Positions 26,916 through 36,418 of a stretch of DNA of 64,000 nucleotides are shown piece by piece. The stretch spans positions 992,001 through 1,056,000 of the forward strand of contig NZ_CP051514.1 of the NCBI RefSeq assembly GCF_012689525.1. Direction: 5' to 3'. Source of the stretch: Paraburkholderia aromaticivorans (lineage in GTDB: Bacteria; Pseudomonadota; Gammaproteobacteria; Burkholderiales; Burkholderiaceae). The notes beneath the pieces are model-generated. The model was not told where the DNA came from. It made no database searches and was given only the letters and a program-made list of their open reading frames with translations. Made by a program: the position numbers and the translations under genes. Within the stretch, counting starts at the first letter, position 1. Every line of letters starts with the position of its first letter.

Positions 26916-26990
26916 CTATACCTCCGTCTGCTCGGCGATTTCGAGCGCATCATCTACCTCGATGCCGAGGTATCGCACTGTACTTTCGAG
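26916..26990 (-). pseudogene. Tyrosine-recombinase C-terminal tail (24 residues)
   Basis: The minus strand reads LESTVRYLGIEVDDALEIAE and ends TEV at a TAG (26916-26918), the well-known tail of phage-type integrases including the nucleophile Tyr in VRYLG. The gene is cut at its CTCGA codons exactly where a 32-bp palindrome begins (26986-27017). The 300 bases to its left (26614-26915) hold no recognisable gene. Confidence 0.7.
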
Positions 26991-27017
26991 CCTATTGACT
27001 GCAGTCAATAGGCTCGA
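26986..27017. repeat. Perfect 32-bp palindrome centred on CTGCAG
   Basis: The stretch reads the same on both strands for 32 bases (left arm TCGAGCCTATTGACTG). It lies exactly at the junction between the integrase tail to its left and a RIT-type end to its right. It may be a recombination crossover site or a fusion point of two element ends. Confidence 0.85.
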
Positions 27018-27034
27018 CTATCTCCCGCGCGGAA

Positions 27035-27100
27035 CTATGTCCCGTGGCGCACGAGACTAACGGGACGACATCAGCCCGCCGTGCGCGGTGCGGGACATAG
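27035..27100. repeat. RIT-type terminal arms (element remnant A)
   Basis: CTATGTCCCG at 27035-27044 and its exact reverse complement CGGGACATAG at 27091-27100, 46 bases apart, directly follow the stop of the ritC fragment at 27107 (minus strand). The same arrangement follows all other ritC genes in the window. Confidence 0.6.
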
Positions 27101-27106
27101 CGTGAC

Positions 27107-27326
27107 CTACAGGCCCTTCAAGAACGCCAGCAATCGGTCATCTGGTCGATATCTTCCCGGCGTACCTGTTGGGGGCGTGGTTCTATCCAGAACCTCCTGC
27201 TTCAACGTCAGGTTGGCGTCCAGGTAGACCTGTGTGGTTTCCACCGATTCGTGACCGAGCCACAGTGCGATTACCGAGGGGTCGACGCCTTCTTGCAGCA
27301 GATCCATCGCTGTCGTGTGCCTTCAA
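27107..27326 (-). pseudogene. RitC-like tyrosine recombinase, C-terminal fragment A
   Basis: The minus strand encodes RHTTAMDLLQEGVDPSVIAL, then WLGHESVETTQVYLDANLTL to a stop: the HxxR/HT, GH and Tyr part of a tyrosine recombinase. It closely resembles the C-terminus of the complete ritC at 34691-35707. Coding similarity stops just upstream of the Arg-His codons near 27326, where a TGA interrupts, so the rest is lost. The sequence beyond (27327-27547) holds no gene. Confidence 0.8.
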
Positions 27327-27547
27327 TGTCTCCAACGACATTGTCGACACTATGTGCCCTTCCTGACTATGTCTTGTAAATGAACAATAACCCGTATTTC
27401 GTGCGTGAACCCGTGTTGTGAGATAGAGATAGTCTTGATTCCTTCCATCAGTCCCGACGTCCGGGAAGGAGTCTGGATACCGTCAAGCAGCATGTCCGGT
27501 TTACCGACAATCATCTTGGCCGGTCGGTCGGGATGATTGTCGCTGCG

Positions 27548-28366
27548 TCAGGTGATCATGGTTGTCGCTCCGCTCGGATTGTCCGTGGGTAATTGACGGC
27601 GACGCTCTTTCTGGTTGTTGCTAGCGGTGCGGCGCCGATAGCTTTCAACATTCAACTCGAAGATCGTCGAGTGATGGACGAGCCGATCAATGGCGGCCAC
27701 CGTCATGCCGGGGTCGGGGAAGACGTCATTCCACCCCGAGAACGGTTGATTGGCCGTTATCAGAAGACTCTTCCGCTCATACCTCTCAGCGATCAGCTCG
27801 AACAGCACGCTGGTTTCGGCCTGGTCCTTCCTCACATACGACAGATCGTCCAGGATGATCAGGTCGAACCGGTCGAGTTTGGCGAGCGCCGAAGGCAATT
27901 GCAGACTTTGGCGTGCGACCTGGAGTTTCTGCACGATTTCACCGGTACGCGTGAACAGCACCCGATATCCGGCATCGATTAGCGCGTGTCCGATGGCGCT
28001 TCCAAGGTGACTTTTGCCCCCGCCAGGCGGCCCGAACAGCAGAATCGTGGCACCTTTCTCGAGCCACGAATCACCGGTGGCCAGCGCCATCACATGCGCC
28101 TTCGATACCATGGGGACAACGCCGAAGTCGAAGGTGGCGAGCGTCTTGGTCGGATCCAGATGTGACTCGGTACGATGGCGTTCGATTCTTCGATTGGCCC
28201 GCCCGGCAAGCTCATGTTCGAGCAGCGCACCAAGCAAGCGGGACGCCTGCCAGCCTTCCTTGTCCGAGCGTTCAGCGAAGTCGGACCACAAGCGGCCGAT
28301 CGTTGGCAGACGCAACTCATTGAGCATCAGTGCCATACGGCCAGCATCGTAAGCGGAGGCATTCAT
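27548..28366 (-). CDS. istB: IS21-family helper ATPase IstB
   Basis: A 272-residue AAA+ ATPase. N-terminal region MNELRLPTIGRLWSDFAERS-like helix, Walker A GPPGGGKSHL, Walker B LIILDD, and sensor region LLITANQPFSGWNDVFPDP. IstB loads the IstA transposase onto target DNA. The start overlaps the istA stop (ATGA at 28363-28366), the usual IS21 arrangement. It is intact, but its partner istA is truncated, so the element is probably immobile. Confidence 0.93.
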   Translation of the reverse strand: MNASAYDAGRMALMLNELRLPTIGRLWSDFAERSDKEGWQASRLLGALLEHELAGRANRRIERHRTESHLDPTKTLATFDFGVVPMVSKAHVMALATGDSWLEKGATILLFGPPGGGKSHLGSAIGHALIDAGYRVLFTRTGEIVQKLQVARQSLQLPSALAKLDRFDLIILDDLSYVRKDQAETSVLFELIAERYERKSLLITANQPFSGWNDVFPDPGMTVAAIDRLVHHSTIFELNVESYRRRTASNNQKERRRQLPTDNPSGATTMIT

Positions 28367-29160
28367 ACGAGCACCTCCTCATCGAGCAACGTGTCATAAA
28401 GCGCAGCGGACGGCATCTCGACCACCACCACAGGACACTCGGCCTGGCGCGGTGCGAACTCATCGAACAGCGCCTTCAGATCAGGCAGTTCACCGAGATC
28501 AAGCAATGCATCGAGCCGCTCGGCCAGTTGCGCCTCGACCCCGTGGTTCCCGGCCAACTCAAGCAGCCCCACCATGGTTTTGCAGGCGCTGCGCGGAGTC
28601 AGTGCCTGATCCAGTCGCTCCCAGGTCCGGCGGTAGGCTTCGCGTGGAAACAGATCGTCACGAAACGCGAGACCCCTGAACGCCTGCGGCTTACGCTTGA
28701 GCGCGTCGATGAAGTGCCGGTAGTCGATGCCGCGGCCGCGCCGCTTGCTCGTGTGCGTGGCTCTCGTCGTGCTATGCACGAGCGCGCCGGATAGATAGCA
28801 ATCGAGCCGGTCGCTATACACGCGTACCTTCAGTCGATGGCCGATCAACCGTGACGGCGCGCTGTAGAGGACGCAGCGCACGCTGAACGTGCCGCAGCGG
28901 GTCACGCGCGCCTCTTCCTCATCGAAGTCAGTGGTCCGGTGCTCAGGCAGATCCAGCAGGTATTCGCGTTCGACCTGGAACGCCGCAGCATTGCGCCGGT
29001 TCCGCCGCATCACGACGCCGCGCACGAACTCATCGTAGGCCGCCCGATCGGCGAAGTCGCGATGACCGCGCAGTTCCATGGCCTGATCGACCTGATCCTT
29101 CAGGTAGCGATGTGAGGATTCGACACTGCCGTTCTCATGATTATGGGCTCGAGCCCATAA
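28363..29160 (-). pseudogene. istA: IS21-family transposase IstA, N-terminal half missing
   Basis: About 265 residues of the C-terminal half of IstA: the HENGSVESSHRYLKDQVDQA stretch holding the last catalytic Glu of the DDE triad, then the Mu-transposase C-terminal barrel with FSVRCVLYSAPSRLIGHRLK. The catalytic Asp residues and the HTH are absent. Similarity to IstA ends near 29160; to the right lies about 90 bases of unrelated sequence and then the IS91-like element. The minus-strand frame stays open to 29208 by chance. Confidence 0.85.
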
Positions 29161-29517
29161 GGCAGAGGTTTTTTTGGTTGGCGGTCGCGGCAACCAGCGC
29201 ATCGCCATGTCGTCGGACCTGATCCGCGACCGGTAATCAAAAAAACGTTTGTGCTAAACCGCTCCGCAGGCGGTGGCCGCTATGGGCATTGAATGACCGC
29301 CGCGGTAATTTGTGATGTCTTGCAGGGGTGATCAGACACGGACTTCCGGCGAGAGTGGGAAGCATCACGTGTAAAGGAAGCGGGAATGTGCGCGTGAAGC
29401 GGCAAATCACCCGCCATTCTGGAGTACGCTGGTGCGCCAGCAGATCGAAGGCACGAGTGCAGCCGCGTTGGCCTCGTCAGGAAAGGCGAACGTGTACGGA
29501 AACAGGTGCGGTGGCAA

Positions 29518-30723
29518 CTAGCGCGCATGGGTGGGACCTGGCGGGGCTCGTGGAAGGCTGCCGGGCATGTCTTCGATGCGGAGCATGTGTCCCTTGCCAC
29601 ATACGGGGCAGTCGCGCAGTGACTTGCCGGTGAGTCGCTGGTAGCGGTCACGGTAGTCTTCCCCGGGCTCGGCTGCGGCAGCAGCGGGAGCCTCGACACC
29701 GAGCAGCTGCCTGCAGGTGGCGAGCTTGTCGGCACGGTGGCAGTTGGCGAGCCACCCGTAGCTGCGAATGCGCTTGAAGCCGTCAGGCAGCACATGCAGC
29801 AGGAAGCGACGGATGAACTCGTCGGCCGTGAGCGTCATGGTCCTTTGTCTGGACTCGTGCCGGTAGTCCTTCCAGCAGAACTGCACGGTGTGCCCGTCGA
29901 AGGCGAGCAGCCGGTTGTTGGAGATGGCGACGCGGTGGGTGTAGCGGCCCAGGTAATCGAGCACGTGTTCGGCACCGCCAAAGGGTGGTTTGGCGTAGAC
30001 CACCCACTCCGCCCGTGCCGCGGGTGCAAGCCAGGCTGCGAATTCGACGGGATCGCTCAGGGATTCGAACTGACCGTGCAGGCGCAGCCCGCCGGCGTCG
30101 TAAGCGCGGCGCAGCTGTTGGAGAAACAGGCGGCGAAAGAGCCGTGACAGGACCCGCACGGAAAGGAAGAAGCCGGGACGGCAGGCGATCCAGCGCTCGC
30201 CGTCCGGGGAGATGCCGCCGCCCGGCACAACGCAATGCACATGAGGGTGATGCTGCAGATTCTGTCCCCACGTATGCAGGATCGTGAGGAAGCCGATCTC
30301 GGCGCCCAGGTGCTTCGGATCGGCGGCGATCGTGCGCAACGTTTCGGCGCTGGCGCGGAACAGCAGATCGTAGAGCGTCCTCCTGTTCTGGAACGCGAGA
30401 GCGGCGATGGTTTCGGGAAGCGTGAAGACGACATGGAAATACTCGGTCGAGGGGAGGAGTTCCGCATGCCGGCGTTCGAGCCATTGCGCGCGGGCGAGTG
30501 ACTGGCATTTCGGACAGTGCCGGTTACGACACGAGTCGTAACTGATGCGCTGATGGCCGCATGCATCGCACTGCTCGAGATGGGCACCAAGCGCTGCGGT
30601 ACGACACAGCTCGATGGCACTCATCACGCGTCGCTGCACACGACTGAGCCCCTCGGCATGGGATAGCCGGAAACTGGGCCCACACTGGCGGAAAATGTCC
30701 GCCACTTCGAGCGCCGGCCGCAT
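29518..30723 (-). CDS. IS91-family rolling-circle (HUH) transposase
   Basis: A 401-residue protein from ATG 30723. N-terminal zinc finger (CDACGHQRISYDSCRNRHC, PKC), HUH-type motif HPHVH in LQHHPHVHCVVPGGG, and the catalytic Tyr region YLGRYTHRVAISNNRL. IS91 transposases nick and transfer a single strand by rolling circle. The C-terminus has another Cys pair (CPVCGKGH). Its start lies nine bases after the recombinase stop, so the two are co-transcribed. It appears intact. Confidence 0.9.
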   Translation of the reverse strand: MRPALEVADIFRQCGPSFRLSHAEGLSRVQRRVMSAIELCRTAALGAHLEQCDACGHQRISYDSCRNRHCPKCQSLARAQWLERRHAELLPSTEYFHVVFTLPETIAALAFQNRRTLYDLLFRASAETLRTIAADPKHLGAEIGFLTILHTWGQNLQHHPHVHCVVPGGGISPDGERWIACRPGFFLSVRVLSRLFRRLFLQQLRRAYDAGGLRLHGQFESLSDPVEFAAWLAPAARAEWVVYAKPPFGGAEHVLDYLGRYTHRVAISNNRLLAFDGHTVQFCWKDYRHESRQRTMTLTADEFIRRFLLHVLPDGFKRIRSYGWLANCHRADKLATCRQLLGVEAPAAAAAEPGEDYRDRYQRLTGKSLRDCPVCGKGHMLRIEDMPGSLPRAPPGPTHAR

Positions 30724-30731
30724 GACTGCGC

Positions 30732-31610
30732 TCAGAAGTACTCGGGCGCAGGTGGCGGGGATGGAATGGGTGCAGGGTGCGGTAGCAGATCGAAGGGACT
30801 GGTGGTGGCGCACACGGTGCTGGTGGCCACCTTCAGGTAACGGCACGTTGTCGATAGGGACCTATGGCCCATCAGCAGCTGGATCCGGCGCACGTCAGTA
30901 CCGGCTTCCAGCAGATGCGTGGCGAACGCGTGCCGCAAAGAATGGGGTGTCACGGGTTTGGCGATGCCGCTGCGCTTGCGCGCAAGCTCGCATGCGTCGC
31001 CCACGGCATGGCGGGTGATGGGCCGCCCCGGAATGCTGCCTGGAAAGAGCCATTCCTTCGGATGGGCGTCCTGCCAGTACAGCCTCAGGATGTCGAGTAG
31101 CCTCGGGGAGAGCATTACATAGCGATCCTTACGGTTCTTCCCCTGGTTCACACGGATAACCATGCGCTTGCTGTCGATATCGGTGACCTTCAGATGCACG
31201 ACTTCCGACACCCGCAGTCCGGCGGCGTACGCGGTCATCAGGATGGTGCGGTGCTTGAGACTGGCGACCGACTCGAAGAAGGTGGTGATCTCCTCCAGGC
31301 TGAGGACGACCGGCAGTCGGAACGGCTTCCTCGGCAAGGGAAAATCCTCGTCGCTCCAGTCGCGCTTAAGCGTCACACGGTAGAGAAACCGGAGTGCGCC
31401 GATCGTTGGGCCGAGGCTGCCGGGTGCCAGCTTGCGCTCTTCCCGGAGATAGATGAGCCAGGCCCGGATCTCGTCGGGGCCCAGCAGTTCGGGCGAACGG
31501 TGAAAGTGACGGGCGTAACTGGATACCTGAATCAGATAGGACTTCTGTGTGTTCTCGGCGAGATTACGGATCTCCATGTCGTGCAACATGCGTTGGCGCA
31601 GCGGCGTCAT
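30732..31610 (-). CDS. Tyrosine recombinase of the IS91-like element
   Basis: A 292-residue XerC/D-like recombinase from ATG 31610 after GGAGG. The SAM-like N-domain (MLHDMEIRNLAENTQKSYL) and the catalytic domain with Arg in YAAGLRVSEVVHLKV, HSLRHAFATHLLEAG, MGHRSLSTTCRYLKV (His and Tyr nucleophile) are complete. Such recombinases accompany a subgroup of IS91-like elements. It precedes the HUH transposase in the same operon. Confidence 0.9.
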   Translation of the reverse strand: MTPLRQRMLHDMEIRNLAENTQKSYLIQVSSYARHFHRSPELLGPDEIRAWLIYLREERKLAPGSLGPTIGALRFLYRVTLKRDWSDEDFPLPRKPFRLPVVLSLEEITTFFESVASLKHRTILMTAYAAGLRVSEVVHLKVTDIDSKRMVIRVNQGKNRKDRYVMLSPRLLDILRLYWQDAHPKEWLFPGSIPGRPITRHAVGDACELARKRSGIAKPVTPHSLRHAFATHLLEAGTDVRRIQLLMGHRSLSTTCRYLKVATSTVCATTSPFDLLPHPAPIPSPPPAPEYF

Positions 31611-31801
31611 GACTAACCTCCTGGAAGCAGTGGTGGAGCCCGGTTGGGCATCCACATACTGCTCCTGGAGGTATCTGCGTCCCCTCGTTGGGATCCTGCG
31701 TCAGCTCACCGCGACAATGAACGTCAGCCATCAGCTCTCGCACTCCTCCCACTACCGCGTCAGCGGTTTAGTACAATCATGAGTATGGTGTGGTAAAAAA
31801 A

Positions 31802-31862
31802 ATGTGCTGGTCGATAACCAACGAGGCCAAGGCAGCGTCTTTGCGGAAATCGAACAGCACAT
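31802..31862. repeat. RIT-type terminal arms (element remnant B)
   Basis: ATGTGCTG at 31802-31809 and CAGCACAT at 31855-31862 are exact reverse complements 45 bases apart, extendable to 14-base arms with one mismatch. They directly follow the stop of the ritC fragment at 31872 (minus strand), as in the other RIT ends. Confidence 0.6.
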
Positions 31863-31871
31863 ATTATTCGG

Positions 31872-32309
31872 CTACAGGGTGCGGAGGAAGGCCATCAGGT
31901 CGGGCTGATCACGCCATTGTTTTTGTACTTCGGCATTGCCTTGCACTTCGCATGTCGCCAGCGCCCGCGCCTTTGTTTCCAGGTTGATCTCGGCATAGAT
32001 GTTGGTCGTCTCCAACGACACGTGCCCAAGCCAGCCGCGTATCGTATTGATGTCGACACCGGCCTGCAGTAGTAGCGAAGCGGTTGTATGCCGAATCACA
32101 TGTGGGTGCACATTCTTGCCGGCGAGTGACGGCGCGCTGGCTGCAGCACGAATAGCGCAGCGCTTCACCAGAGCATGAATGCCGGAGCGCGTCATCGTCT
32201 GGTGGAACCGGTTGAGGAACACAGGTTCGGCGGCGGCCCTGCCTTCAGTCTGTGAGCGCAACGCCTCGATTGTGGATTTCCAGAGCGGGCAGCGGCGATG
32301 TTTGCGTTC
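31872..32309 (-). pseudogene. RitC-like tyrosine recombinase, C-terminal fragment B
   Basis: About 145 residues: ERKHRRCPLWKSTIEALRSQ at the broken edge, then HPHVIRHTTASLLLQAGVDI, WLGHVSLETTNIYAEINLET, and an AFLRTL end. This is the catalytic half of a RIT-type recombinase. The break falls in the conserved HGKGRK stretch, at the outer edge of the palindrome that starts the complete RIT element. The N-terminal half is nowhere in the window. Confidence 0.85.
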
Positions 32310-32333
32310 ATGCAAATATTTGCATGATCGGAA
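32310..32333. repeat. RIT left direct repeat (att-like)
   Basis: Starts with the palindrome ATGCAAATATTTGCAT (32310-32325) and continues GATCGGAA. It is identical to 35819-35842 in the same orientation. To its left is ritC fragment B. Confidence 0.8.
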
Positions 32334-32351
32334 CTATGACGAACTCGGGAA

Positions 32352-32435
32352 TATGCGCAGCTCCGCGCCAGGGACGTCCGTTTGGCGCCTTGTAAAGGGT
32401 GTTTGGTCACGGGTACCGGTAGTGGACTGCGCATA
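32352..32435. repeat. RIT left-end inner arms
   Basis: TATGCGCAG at 32352-32360 and CTGCGCATA at 32427-32435 are exact reverse complements 66 bases apart. The same arm sequence is found in the right end (35709-35792), so both ends carry the same paired site, probably the recombinase binding site. Confidence 0.65.
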
Positions 32436-32494
32436 ATAAAAGTGCTTTCCTCAGGAGGCAGGTCGACAAGTTCGGCTTTTTGAGGAGGGGTATC

Positions 32495-33754
32495 ATGAAC
32501 AGCGACTTCGCGTTACCGCAGCGGACCCGGGCATGGTTGACGGACGGCGTGCTCAAACCCAGCTATCAAGCCTATTCGACGTATTTGATTGGGCGCGGAT
32601 ATTCGTCGTGGAGCGTCCGGAAGTATTTGTGCTGCGTCGCGCACTTTGCTTATTGGCTGCGCAAGCGACGCATCAAACTCAGTCAGATTGACGAAGCGCT
32701 GATCCGCTATTTTCTGGATGAACACCTGCCTCAGTGCGACTGCCCATTGCGCACGCCAAGAAGCAGGAACCATATCGGGTCGGCCTTAAAGCATCTGCTT
32801 GTCGTGCTGCGCCAGAGGGCGGACATACGCCATCAGCCCGACTTCACACCCCGTCTGATACGGGAGGAGATCAGGGAATTTGACGCACACCTTGACCAGG
32901 TCTGCGGGCTGGCCGCATCTACGAGAAGGTTGCGTACACGCATCGTACGGACGTTCCTGTCGGAGCGATTCGGTGCATCGAGAATCACTATGGCACAGGT
33001 CAAACCGGAACATGTTCATCGATTTGTAGTCAGCCACCTCGAAGGATGCAAGCCGAGCACCGGCAAAGTCCTTGGGAGTGCACTACGGAGCTACTTGCAT
33101 TTCCGAGGAATGCACGGAGATCACGTCCGGTGCCTTATTGCCGCGATTCCACAAATCGCCCAGTGGCGGTTCGCATCGTTACCAGACTCGCTATGTGAGG
33201 CGGAGCTGGAACGGTTTCTTAACGCATTCGATCGCAAATCCGCGATCGGCCGCAGAGACTACGCAATGGCCCGGTGTATGGTCGACCTGGGACTACGCGC
33301 CGGCGAAGTCGCTTCGCTACAGCTGGACGACCTGAACTGGCACGACGGGACGTTGCGGTTATCAGCAGGCAAGGCGCGGCGAACAGATGTGCTTCCGTTG
33401 CCGCCCCGGACCGGGCGCGCAATTGCTCAATACCTGACTGACGGGCGCCCGGTCTCCGATAGCCGGGCGGTATTTCTGCGGCATCGCGCTCCACTTACCG
33501 AACCCGTCGGCTCGAGCGTCGTTCGCAATACCGTCCGTGCCGCTCATGCGCGATGCGGCAGCGATCCACGCTGCAGGGGAACCCATGTATTGCGGCACAG
33601 CGTAGGCAGTCGGCTGATTAACGCTGGAGTCCCTATGAAGGAAATCGCCGATATCCTTCGACACCGCAGCCTCGATACTACCGCGATTTACACCACGGTC
33701 GATATCAGGAGCCTTGCCAAGGTCGCGCTGCCCTGGCCGGGGAGCGAATCATGA
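32495..33754 (+). CDS. RIT tyrosine recombinase A
   Basis: A 419-residue recombinase from ATG 32495 after GAGGAGGGG. A long N-terminal region (residues 1-210) includes the core-binding helices. The catalytic domain has Arg in MVDLGLRAGEVASLQLDDL, THVLRHSVGSRLINAGVPM (HxxR), ILRHRSLDTTAIYTTVD (His and Tyr nucleophile). All catalytic residues are present. The stop overlaps recombinase B by four bases. RIT recombinases act together to move the element. Confidence 0.92.
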   Translation: MNSDFALPQRTRAWLTDGVLKPSYQAYSTYLIGRGYSSWSVRKYLCCVAHFAYWLRKRRIKLSQIDEALIRYFLDEHLPQCDCPLRTPRSRNHIGSALKHLLVVLRQRADIRHQPDFTPRLIREEIREFDAHLDQVCGLAASTRRLRTRIVRTFLSERFGASRITMAQVKPEHVHRFVVSHLEGCKPSTGKVLGSALRSYLHFRGMHGDHVRCLIAAIPQIAQWRFASLPDSLCEAELERFLNAFDRKSAIGRRDYAMARCMVDLGLRAGEVASLQLDDLNWHDGTLRLSAGKARRTDVLPLPPRTGRAIAQYLTDGRPVSDSRAVFLRHRAPLTEPVGSSVVRNTVRAAHARCGSDPRCRGTHVLRHSVGSRLINAGVPMKEIADILRHRSLDTTAIYTTVDIRSLAKVALPWPGSES

Positions 33755-34698
33755 AACGTTCAGTGAGAATGCTATCGCTCGCCGAGGACTACCTTGCGTC
33801 AAGACGCCGCCTTGGTTTTGACCTGCGGTGTACGGGACGCCGGCTTCTTGATTTTGCCTGCTTTGCCGACCGGATCGGCCACCAGGGGCCGCTCACCGTA
33901 AAACTGGCAGCGTCCTGGGCTCGATCTGCATCAAGTCAGGTGCCCTTTACCTGGGCGCGTCGGATTGAGATCGTTCGCCCGTTCGCAAGGTATCTCCAGC
34001 AATTTGACCCTGCCACCGAAGTTCCTCCGCTTTATCTTTTCGGCCGAGCCCATCGCCGTTTGACACCGCACATCTATGCCGATGAGGAGATCCGGGAACT
34101 GCTGGCCGCTGCTTCGACGTTGCCCTCGAAGGAGAAACTGCGGCCCGTGACCTACTCAACCCTGTTCGGGCTGATCGCGGCCACCGGACTGCGGATTTCT
34201 GAGGCGCTTAACCTGAGGCGCGCAGACGTCGACCTCGATCAAGGCCTGCTGATGATTCGGGTAACGAAGTATCGTAAGTCCCGCGTCGTTCCACTTCATC
34301 AAACGGTCGTGCGAGCACTTGCACACTATGTAGAGCTGCGGGATCGCGATTGGCCCATCACGCTAAGCGATCACTTCTTCATCGTGCACGGAAGCAGCAT
34401 GAAGATCAGTACCGTTGAGGAGGTCTTCAGTTCCTTGCGTTCGCAGTTGGGATGGGTCGCCCGTGGTGATCATCCGGCTCCACGCATCCACAATCTGAGG
34501 CACTCGTTTATCTGCCGAAGGGTGTTGCTCTGGTACCAGCAAGGGGTGGACGTCGACAACGCAATGATCATGCTTTCGACTTACGTAGGGCATGCCAAGG
34601 TGACCGACACCTACTGGTATCTAACGGGCATCCCGGAACTGATGGCAATTGCGGCTCAGCGCTTCGAGCACTTTACAGAAGGAGTCTGTCATGTCTAA
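33751..34698 (+). CDS. RIT tyrosine recombinase B
   Basis: A 315-residue recombinase overlapping A by ATGA. Catalytic residues: Arg in ATGLRISEALNLRRADVD, HNLRHSFICRRVLLWYQQGV, YVGHAKVTDTYWYLTGIPE. Compared with A and C the spacing between HxxR and GH is longer (WYQQGVDVDNAMIMLS), typical of the middle RIT protein. The end overlaps recombinase C by eight bases. Confidence 0.92.
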   Translation: MKRSVRMLSLAEDYLASRRRLGFDLRCTGRRLLDFACFADRIGHQGPLTVKLAASWARSASSQVPFTWARRIEIVRPFARYLQQFDPATEVPPLYLFGRAHRRLTPHIYADEEIRELLAAASTLPSKEKLRPVTYSTLFGLIAATGLRISEALNLRRADVDLDQGLLMIRVTKYRKSRVVPLHQTVVRALAHYVELRDRDWPITLSDHFFIVHGSSMKISTVEEVFSSLRSQLGWVARGDHPAPRIHNLRHSFICRRVLLWYQQGVDVDNAMIMLSTYVGHAKVTDTYWYLTGIPELMAIAAQRFEHFTEGVCHV

Positions 34699-35707
34699 AA
34701 GGCAAAGCCATTGTTCGTCGTCGAACTTCGCCGCGCTGCTACAGGAATTCTTCGTTGAGCGGCTAATGCAACAACGGGCAGTCAGCCCGCAGACGATAGC
34801 CAGTTATCGGGATACCTTTCGACTATTCCTTCAGTTTGCTCAGGCGCGTCTGCATAAGTCGCCTGTCGAGCTGGCGTTAGCAGACATCAACGTGGATCTG
34901 GTGCTGGCCTTCCTTCGTCATCTGGAGGACAACCGGCATAATTGCGCGCGCACCCGGAATTCGCGGCTTGTTGCCATCCGTTCATTTCTGAAGTACGCAG
35001 CCCTCAAGGATATTTCTTCGCTGGCTGTTATCCAAAGCACTCTAGCTATCCCAATGAAGCGCTTCGACAGGCCGCTCATCGGCCACCTGTCGCGTGACGA
35101 GATCGAGGCACTACTCGCCGCACCCGACCCCAACACCTGGTGCGGGCAGCGGGACCGGGTACTGTTTGCAACGCTATACAATACTGGCGCACGCGTTTCC
35201 GAACTGATCGGTCTGCGGGTGGGTGACGTCGTTCTGGATAAGGCGCCCTGTGCACATATCCACGGCAAAGGCCGGAAACAGCGCACCGTACCGTTGTGGC
35301 GCTCAACCGCGAGCCAAATCAGAAGCTGGTTGCCGCGGATCCGGTCATCGCCTGATCAGATTCTGTTTCCGAATCGCTCGGGGAACCCGATGACGCGATC
35401 CAACGTTACGGATCGGCTCAAACTCGCAGCGCGGACAGCCACCAGGCAATGCCCTCAACTATCAAGCCATCCCATTTCACCGCATGTCATCCGGCACTCG
35501 ACTGGGACTCATCTGCTGCAATCGGGCGTTGACCTGAGTGTCATTGCACTGTGGCTTGGACACGAAAGCCCAGCGACTACTCACATGTACGTCGAGGCCG
35601 ACCTCGCGATGAAGGAGCGTGCGCTCAATACTTTGCAACCACCTCACAGCAGAATCGCGCGATATCGACCGCCCGATCGCTTGATGCAGTTCCTGGAAAG
35701 CTTGTAA
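34691..35707 (+). CDS. RIT tyrosine recombinase C
   Basis: A 338-residue recombinase, from ATG 34691 inside the end of B. The N-domain has FFVERLMQQRAVSPQTIASY; catalytic Arg in YNTGARVSELIGLRVGDV; a KGRKQRTVPLW stretch; HVIRHSTGTHLLQSGVDLSV; WLGHESPATTHMYVEADLAM. It is the closest relative of the three ritC fragments in this window. These are broken at (or, for fragment A, downstream of) the KGRK stretch that is intact here. Confidence 0.92.
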   Translation: MSKRQSHCSSSNFAALLQEFFVERLMQQRAVSPQTIASYRDTFRLFLQFAQARLHKSPVELALADINVDLVLAFLRHLEDNRHNCARTRNSRLVAIRSFLKYAALKDISSLAVIQSTLAIPMKRFDRPLIGHLSRDEIEALLAAPDPNTWCGQRDRVLFATLYNTGARVSELIGLRVGDVVLDKAPCAHIHGKGRKQRTVPLWRSTASQIRSWLPRIRSSPDQILFPNRSGNPMTRSNVTDRLKLAARTATRQCPQLSSHPISPHVIRHSTGTHLLQSGVDLSVIALWLGHESPATTHMYVEADLAMKERALNTLQPPHSRIARYRPPDRLMQFLESL

Positions 35708-35708
35708 T

Positions 35709-35792
35709 TATGCGCAGTTCACACCACGGATCCGCCATCCACAGCCCATCGCAGAAGAACGAATTGGCGTCTGTGGCGCGGAACTGCGCATA
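35709..35792. repeat. RIT right-end inner arms
   Basis: TATGCGCAGTTC at 35709-35720, starting just after the ritC stop, and its exact reverse complement GAACTGCGCATA at 35781-35792, 60 bases apart. Matches the arms of the left end. Confidence 0.7.
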
Positions 35793-35818
35793 TTCCCGAG
35801 ATCGTCATAGTTGTTCTC

Positions 35819-35842
35819 ATGCAAATATTTGCATGATCGGAA
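35819..35842. repeat. RIT right direct repeat (att-like)
   Basis: Identical to 32310-32333 over 24 bases, same orientation, again starting with ATGCAAATATTTGCAT (35819-35834). The last eight bases (GATCGGAA) are also codons of the flanking ritC fragment C, so one copy of the repeat belongs to the target. Confidence 0.8.
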
Positions 35843-36275
35843 GCTGCGATCGATTCCCCTGTGGGACGCCACCGTCGCCGAGATTCGCAGTTGGTTGCGA
35901 TCGAATCCAATAATGCGCGGCGAAGCCGCCTTGCTGCCCAACCGGGATGGGCAGGCGATGTCGCGCTCCAACGTCGCGCAACGCCTGGATCTTGCCGTGA
36001 GCCGCGCGAGTGTGGAGCAACCCAGCCTCCTCAAGAAGCGCGTTTCACCGCACATCTTGAGACATACGACCGCGATGCACCTGTTGCAAGCGGGCGTTCC
36101 ATTCAACGTAATCGCCTTGTGGCTCGGTCACGAGAGCCCGATGACAACCCATCGCTACGTCGAGGCTGACCTCGCGATGAAGGAGAAAGCGCTCGGTCGG
36201 CTGGAGGCGCCCGATGCCAGGATTCGCCGGTATCAGGCACCCGACGCGTTGATTCGATTCCTGCGGACGCTGTAA
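35835..36275 (+). pseudogene. RitC-like tyrosine recombinase, C-terminal fragment C
   Basis: About 146 residues starting DRKLRSIPLWDATVAEIRSW at the broken edge, then SPHILRHTTAMHLLQAGVPF, WLGHESPMTTHRYVEADLAM, and an IRFLRTL end. The break is at the same codons as fragment B, but the fragment points the other way. It resembles ritC (34691-35707) closely. Confidence 0.87.
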
Positions 36276-36351
36276 CTATGCGAAGGTGTCGCCAGCCTCA
36301 ACCGCACCCCTCAAGGGGCTGGCATCGCCCGCGATGACCATCTGCGCATAG
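36276..36351. repeat. RIT-type terminal arms (element remnant C)
   Basis: CTATGCG at 36276-36282, directly after the fragment's stop, and CGCATAG at 36345-36351 are reverse complements 62 bases apart. Shorter than the other pairs but in the same position relative to the ritC stop. Confidence 0.5.
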
Positions 36352-36418
36352 TCGCGACCTGAGCATAGGGGTCGACCTGAGCCAGTTGCGTAGAGCCGAT
36401 CACCATCCGGCAGGCATC

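Follow-up and report, generated by a model that had tools for sequence, protein, structure and literature searches.

RIT elements, a poorly understood family of bacterial mobile elements, carry at their ends an ordered set of short DNA arms that has one layout and, from lineage to lineage, different letters. The elements were examined starting from a stretch of 64,000 nucleotides of Paraburkholderia aromaticivorans (contig NZ_CP051514.1, positions 992,001 to 1,056,000; "the window"), part of a genome of 10.8 Mb, in which one complete RIT element lies among the remains of others. Read outward, a RIT end consists of an arm A1, an inverted arm A2, an arm A3 that is a direct repeat of A2, six variable base pairs (bp) and, usually at just one of the two ends, a palindrome P with six more bp behind it. 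Each arm measures 10 bp, and P, 20 bp long, is made up of two arms that abut. An initial annotation of the window had noticed paired arms after the stop codons of its ritC genes and had read them as a conserved recombination site; that pair proves to be the inner part only of a larger set, to which the third arm, the 6-bp spacer and the palindrome are added here. The arms are probably binding sites of the Rit recombinases, and the element would move through a circular intermediate whose joint is formed by two dif-like cores sharing P.

Layout of the RIT ends

The sequence analysed was the stretch after each ritC stop codon. Of the 143 ritC loci collected, genome contigs supplied 80 and viral contigs 63. 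Five were set aside, namely L180, L181, L179, which has no in-frame stop, and two loci shorter than 80 nucleotides, leaving 138; loci whose reading frame continues beyond the match to a stop further on (e.g. L046) were retained. Together with seven ends from the genome of the window, these gave 145 sequences of at least 80 nucleotides, which were reduced via shared 8-mers to 109 non-redundant ends. A regular expression (regex) required TTATG or CTATG. A layout score, which required no letters, combined the inverted pair A1-A2 with a copy of A2 lying 17 bp further out, the threshold being at least 16 of 20. Left ends were sought only among loci with a regex-matching right end, with the 17-bp spacing required; they were located in 64 loci, 55 of which have both ends readable for P.

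A blind search for 10-bp inverted pairs with at least 9 of 10 positions matched found such a pair at 84 of the 109 ends, compared with 55 of 436 dinucleotide shuffles, so that the excess of paired arms on which the initial annotation had made its proposal depend is present in the larger set. The layout score reached its threshold at 75 of the 109 ends and in none of 545 shuffles; of 1010 stretches taken from within rit genes 4 reached it, and of 235 stretches situated 400-900 bp downstream none did. When the third arm was sought at six other offsets, the threshold was reached by 1 to 4 of the 109 ends each, showing a spike at 17 bp only. Upon anchoring on the best blind pair (at least 9/10 in a narrower search, 76 ends), the 10-mer 17 bp past A2 was found to match A2 in 6.07 of 10 positions, against 1.9 to 3.3 of 10 at the other offsets between 11 and 30. 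The arms are short, some are mismatched, and 34 of the 109 ends lie below the layout threshold, as would fit pairs that are chance matches or decayed terminal repeats; against the shuffled, intragenic and downstream controls, however, this explanation has practically no probability, and a chance origin was rejected on these grounds.

Among the 70 regex-positive non-redundant right ends, A1 starts at the base right after the stop codon in 51, and the offset between A2 and A3 is 17 bp in all 70, with 15-21 bp allowed. A3, six bp and P follow one another in 27 of them. The left ends mirror the right ends in the 64 loci. In 45 non-redundant comparisons the two ends of an element agree in 9.53 of the 10 bases of A2, 9.76 of the 10 of A3, 6.18 of the 7 bp between them and 8.25 of the 10 of A1, whereas the 30 bp inside A2 agree in only 11.4 positions. 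Because A2, the 7-bp spacer and A3 are nearly identical between the ends and the inner 30 bp are not, A2-7 bp-A3-6 bp corresponds to the published repeat of 28-34 bp, with A1 as a separate arm.

The arms mostly read TTATGNNNAG. In the majority of lineages the core is still TTATG or CTATG, and variation is found mainly in the three bases after it. A few lineages have replaced the core in concert: ends of the L010 type have TAATTCCG in A1 and P and close variants in A2 and A3, and ends of the L012 type have TAATG as the core. At bases 6-8, A1 and A2 share their letters in 66% of cases, compared with 33% when permuted across loci, and none of 5000 permutations was as high; agreement between A1 and A3, between A2 and A3 and between the arms and P (the last in 27 of the 70 ends) likewise exceeds that of the permuted sets. 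The covariation persists within RitC clusters, whether these are drawn at a minimum of 50, 55 or 60% identity (none of 2000 permutations in each case). Among 42 pairs of nearest neighbours, a change in A2 is seen at 24 of 46 positions with a change in A1 and at 18 of 80 positions without one. Covarying arms, which the initial annotation had proposed to look for in more RIT elements, are thus found there; with the fixed 17-bp and 6-bp spacings, the phased distances described below and the mirrored left ends, they bear out its view of one site architecture with letters peculiar to each lineage. The arm letters would drift along with the recombinases, so that they vary between lineages under a common layout.

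The A1-A2 span falls into clusters of 57, 64-67, 74-79, 86-88 and 108-110 bp. The Rayleigh R is 0.75 at a period of 10.75 bp for 29 distinct cluster-and-span values, which are partly dependent among related lineages, and none of 5000 uniform draws reached it. The spans follow the helical repeat, suggesting that the arms are placed on one face of double-stranded DNA. At right ends the distance is mostly 64-67 or 74-79 bp; at left ends it is 85-88 bp in 28 of 44 and 64-67 bp in 12 of 44. This difference between the ends, together with the location of A1 outside the contiguous terminal repeat and a phased spacing that fits a loop, agrees with an operator function of A1, in which a recombinase dimer bridges A1 and A2 and represses the rit promoter while only A2, A3 and P recombine. 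Such a function is the most serious partial rival to a recombination role of the whole set, yet it is rather unlikely, since A1 is also present behind ritC, where a promoter of the element is not expected.

The loops between A1 and A2 at right ends (35718-35783 in the window) often have an extra RNA hairpin, and those at left ends mostly do not. RNA folding z-scores below -2 were found for 29 of 70 right loops, compared with 6 of 44 left loops read outward and 4 of 44 on the other strand, and all four ritC ends of the window fold into long stems. The right end may therefore double as a 3' hairpin. It is very unlikely that the A1-A2 pair acts in RNA alone, as a long 3' hairpin by which the rit transcript is terminated or shielded, and has no role in recombination: the same arms occur at left ends, their letters are common to A3 and P, a T5 run is present in only 1 of 70 right ends, and helical phasing would have no reason in RNA. 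A pure RNA terminator was rejected because the arms are common to left ends and T runs are nearly absent, though the right loops do fold; a hairpin may coexist with the recombination site.

The point of exchange and the predicted circular joint

An identical ritC is found in five copies at different places of the genome, besides several further ritC lineages that are whole or broken. The right ends of the five copies are identical through A3 and two spacer bases (to 35812) and then diverge. Copies of this element's P were located at five genomic sites, all of them at its ends: P is on the left only in three copies and on both sides in the window copy, and one copy has lost its left end. In the 55 loci with both ends readable, P is on the left only in 24, on the right only in 22, on both sides in 2 and on neither in 7. 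The three 6-mers of the 46 loci with a single P are all equal in 23, two are equal in 13 and all are different in 10; neither set of counts is reduced for redundancy. Two empty sites were found, the intact ritC of L006 for L034 (target 6-mer ACGCAA) and the intact ritC of L007 for L033 (TCGGAA). In both L034 and L033 the end without P keeps the target 6-mer, and the outermost 6-mer is foreign (GAACAA and ACGCAA, respectively). The scattered copies with an identical ritC and the empty sites are indirect signs of mobility. Compared with one another, the five copies and the empty ritC targets place the exchange, as far as sequences can tell, within the 6-bp spacer. The simplest reading is that donor and target 6-mers are swapped as coupling sequences and that either of two equivalent cores of the circular joint is used.

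According to the proposed mechanism, each end would consist of A1 facing outward, the inverted A2, A3 17 bp further out and then a 6-bp spacer in which strands are exchanged. The element would move as a circle with the joint A3-6 bp-P-6 bp-A3, which amounts to two equivalent dif-like cores (arm-6 bp-arm) placed back to back on P. Either core could recombine with the target, which for the lineage of the window would be the GRK codons of ritC genes. After insertion P would lie at either the left or the right end of the element, bordered by 6-mers of donor and target that form coupling sequences; two equivalent cores in one joint would account for P being found on either side. A2 and the helically phased A1 would hold further recombinase domains of the complex.

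The lineage of the window inserts into the ritC genes of other RIT elements, at GKGRK codons. By eye, L043, L048 and L077 seem from their right flanks to be inserted at GRKN codons of IS66-type transposase genes, and a RIT element inside an IS66-family gene is already in print (PMC2864759; this and other published statements are taken from the accessible parts of the papers cited). Insertion at similar codons in ritC and IS66 genes suggests that the target may be a short coding motif common to both.

The joint A3-6 bp-P-6 bp-A3 would be a near-perfect palindrome, and a 6-mer is inverted at both body ends in L033 and L034. Both features would fit ends that work in single-stranded, folded form, like the attC sites of integrons and as has been suggested for strand-biased circularizing elements, the substrate being a hairpin of P and the arms. 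We consider this quite unlikely, because the same palindrome is explained by two double-stranded dif-like cores and the helical phasing of A1 speaks for DNA that is double-stranded.

The AlphaFold2 (AF2) model of RitA has four-helix bundles at residues 21-107 and 120-206 ahead of the catalytic domain, and that of RitC has a C-terminal helix at 328-336, with a predicted local distance difference test score (pLDDT) of about 69-79. The models thus have both protein features described for RIT elements in the accessible part of PMC8138268, two core-binding domains in RitA and an extra C-terminal helix in RitC. Foldseek with the RitA model returned XerA chains first, with XerH and an integron integrase in the top ten, and among PDB sequences a RitC profile matched XerD best. 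Judging by its modelled pair of core-binding domains, RitA could span A2 and A3. In 12 of 91 elements, two or more of the arms A1, A2 and A3 start with C, and RitC has L90 and T93 in all 12 of these and in none of the other 79. Residues 90 and 93 are located within the fourth core-binding helix (85-105) of the AF2 model. L132, which lies outside the set of 91, combines LT with CTATG arms. An A1 arm with TTATG is present in L140 (H,T) and in L007 (L,A). The link between these residues and the first arm base is a lead, not proof.

Several observations weigh against the proposed mechanism. The 34 ends below the layout threshold are explained in part by a contig stop or a lost end and in part have no established reason; the claim of the initial annotation that every ritC end has such arms holds for the four in the window but is not general. 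The RitC residue link represents three independent changes (sign test p 0.25), and columns of RitA and RitB also segregate perfectly with the first arm base, only 8 loci with C arms having given RitA and RitB. The resemblance to Escherichia coli dif beyond the five regex bases is modest: on average 2.5 of the outer six bases agree in A3 and 2.1 in P, where 1.5 is expected. The 6-mer between A3 and P in L033 and L034 is the inverse of that of the target, which fits the simple model only if the donor carried it. The ten single-P loci in which all three 6-mers differ indicate that the 6-mer bookkeeping is incomplete. P is present at both ends in the window copy, L049 and L121, the last two having unlike flanks. 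No circle was seen, none of 141 loci having identical ends of 20-399 bp, many of these loci being pieces of longer contigs.

The mechanism in its full form remains tentative and, taken as a whole, falls a little short of probable: a circle joint that is a doubled dif-like site on P, with direct arms 17 bp away, phased inner arms and P left on either side; RitC residues 90 and 93, in its fourth core-binding helix, that partly read arm identity; and an IS91-family group with its own tyrosine recombinase that settles exactly at the cores.

Features of the window and IS91-family elements

The complete element (Table 1) extends over 32302-35842. Its size of about 3.5 kb, its three adjacent, overlapping genes in RIT order, the Pfam domain PF00589 (Phage_integrase) in RitA, RitB and RitC alike, a terminal inverted repeat of 28-34 bp and the palindrome identify it as a RIT element. 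A2-7 bp-A3, spacer and P are present at both ends. Its two flanks are 3' parts of different ritC genes that face opposite ways; with P at both ends as well, the window copy looks like a recombinant of two insertions. The alternative that the flanks belong to one interrupted ritC was rejected, since both are 3' parts and come from two different genes. A 26-bp direct repeat at 32308 and 35817 was considered as part of the target and rejected, because the five copies show it to be P and spacer.

The arm pairs that the initial annotation had reported after four ritC ends and at the left end of the complete element were all found where it had placed them. A1 and A2 are complementary in 10 of 10 positions with 46 bp between them at the ritC end 27107 (minus strand), in 9 of 10 with 45 bp at 31872 (minus strand), in 9 of 10 with 56 bp behind the fragment that ends at 36275, and in 9 of 10 with 66 bp behind the complete ritC, where the 12-bp register of the annotation gives 12 of 12 with 60 bp. 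At the left end of the complete element the distance is also 66 bp. The 27107 lineage has the standard anatomy in other letters, and its 20-bp palindrome occurs at one place in the genome.

Table 1. Coordinates of the RIT elements and neighbouring features in the window
Feature	Position	Strand	Sequence or remark	Basis
ritA	32495-33754	+	tyrosine recombinase; two tandem core-binding bundles in model	open reading frame (ORF) list; Pfam Phage_integrase; AF2 pLDDT 90.3
ritB	33751-34698	+	tyrosine recombinase; overlaps ritA	ORF list; Pfam Phage_integrase
ritC	34691-35707	+	tyrosine recombinase; overlaps ritB	ORF list; Pfam; AF2 model
A1, right end	35708-35717	+	TTATGCGCAG	
A2, right end	35784-35793	-	CTGCGCATAT	
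A3, right end	35801-35810	-	ATCGTCATAG; 17 bp beyond A2	
6-bp spacer, right end (predicted exchange site)	35811-35816		TTGTTC; identity of five copies stops inside (35812-35813)	
P, 20 bp, right end	35817-35836		TCATGCAAATATTTGCATGA	
Outer 6-bp spacer, right end	35837-35842		TCGGAA; adjoins ritC target half	
A1, left end	32427-32436	-	outward TTATGCGCAG	
A2, left end	32351-32360	+		
A3, left end	32334-32343	+		
6-bp spacer, left end	32328-32333		outward TTCCGA	
P, left end	32308-32327			
Outer 6-bp spacer, left end	32302-32307		outward ACGCAA	
3' part of another ritC, left flank	31872-32301	-	target half of complete element	
3' part of a ritC, right flank	35843-36275	+	intact relative L006 shows empty target	
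A1, 27107 lineage	27091-27100	-	CTATGTCCCG	
A2, 27107 lineage	27035-27044	+	outward CGGGACATAG	
A3, 27107 lineage	27018-27027	+	outward CGGGAGATAG; 17 bp beyond A2	
Spacer-palindrome-spacer, 27107 lineage	26986-27017		TCGAGC-CTATTGACTGCAGTCAATAG-GCTCGA; perfect 32-bp palindrome	
A1, 31872 lineage	31855-31864	-	ATATGTGCTG	
A2, 31872 lineage	31800-31809	+	outward CAGCACATTT	
A3, 31872 lineage	31783-31792	+	outward CACACCATAC	
6-bp spacer, 31872 lineage	31777-31782		TCATGA; end of IS91-family element directly after	
IS91-family element	31776 and leftward		Y2 transposase 29518-30846; tyrosine recombinase 30732-31655	
A1, 36275 lineage	36276-36285	+	CTATGCGAAG	
A2, 36275 lineage	36342-36351	-	CTGCGCATAG	
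A3, 36275 lineage	36359-36368	-	CTGAGCATAG	

The IS91-family end, which reads T[TA]GTACTAAACCGC..., is situated directly after A3 and six bp of RIT ends in all six copies of the genome, at three RIT lineages, and likewise in L086. Of four matches to this end from other genomes of the order, two (L190, L191) are so placed and two (L192, L193) are not. The ten plasmid copies are divided between places beside A3 (L202, L207), beside P (L201, L203, L208), beside neither (L199, L206) and ambiguous (L200, L204, L205). In further genomes of the family L212 lies beside P, L215 beside A3 and L214 beside neither, and L211, L213, L224 and L232 lie behind GATAA and are ambiguous. A more distant IS91-family subgroup (L216 onward) is not placed at RIT ends. 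Either the IS91-family elements insert at RIT cores or RIT elements insert at their ends; insertion sequences that target dif sites offer a comparison (PMC10132070, in the part accessible). In L208, L212 and L201, P and two 6-mers stand without a visible A3 beside the IS91-family end, perhaps as an excision scar.

Relation to known systems

The defined arms and spacers and the predicted circular joint open the RIT family to tests by binding, footprinting and polymerase chain reaction. Many natural lineages that have one layout and different letters are a resource on how tyrosine recombinases choose their DNA, and the 6-bp coupling sequences may let the order of insertions be read from genomes.

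Published descriptions of RIT elements give three tyrosine recombinase genes that overlap and keep a fixed order, a length of about 3.5 kb and several copies per genome (PMC3414803, PMC10214605, PMC2864759). A terminal repeat and a palindrome are already in print: the accessible part of PMC3414803 gives an inverted repeat of 28-29 bp with an overlapping palindrome, finds no other convincing repeats and notes a misfit to the usual core and arm sites, and PMC10214605 gives a terminal inverted repeat of 34 bp. Here A2, 7 bp, A3 and a 6-bp spacer are recognized within the repeat, the palindrome is seen to be a pair of abutted arms, and A1 joins the set. The literature searched, which left subscription papers mostly outside, yielded no account of A1, of the 17-bp rule or of the doubled core; an earlier description in Ricker et al. 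2013 is possible.

The sequence A3-6 bp-P resembles a Xer/dif site, being two inverted arms around a 6-bp centre with CATAA and TTATG on the inner sides (PMC5357621, PMC3025954). The layout that characterizes dif, a pair of inverted arms, each of about 11 bp, on either side of a 6-bp centre, is found in this form in the 27 right ends with P, and A3 of L077 is identical in 11 of 11 bases to the left arm GGTGCGCATAA of Escherichia coli dif (PMC3025954). In contrast to Xer/dif, the RIT site has two cores that share a palindrome, further arms at fixed distances and three recombinases; it is situated on a mobile element, and its spacer varies from copy to copy. In Tn916/Tn1549-type elements, short donor and target spacers (coupling sequences) differ at the two ends after insertion, which is a likeness to RIT elements. 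To our knowledge these elements have, unlike RIT elements, a single integrase and no doubled core with a palindrome.

The strand-biased circularizing elements, GInts and Tn554 have other gene sets, and the accessible part of PMC10214605 describes for them neither a palindrome at one end nor a direct arm 17 bp inside. By the descriptions given there, the complete element of the window is set apart from the strand-biased circularizing elements and GInts, since its three recombinase genes take up the space between its ends in place of four conserved coding sequences. Like RIT elements, however, all of them have several tyrosine recombinases and imperfect terminal inverted repeats, and the 6-bp footprint of the strand-biased circularizing elements and Tn554 resembles the RIT spacer (PMC10214605).

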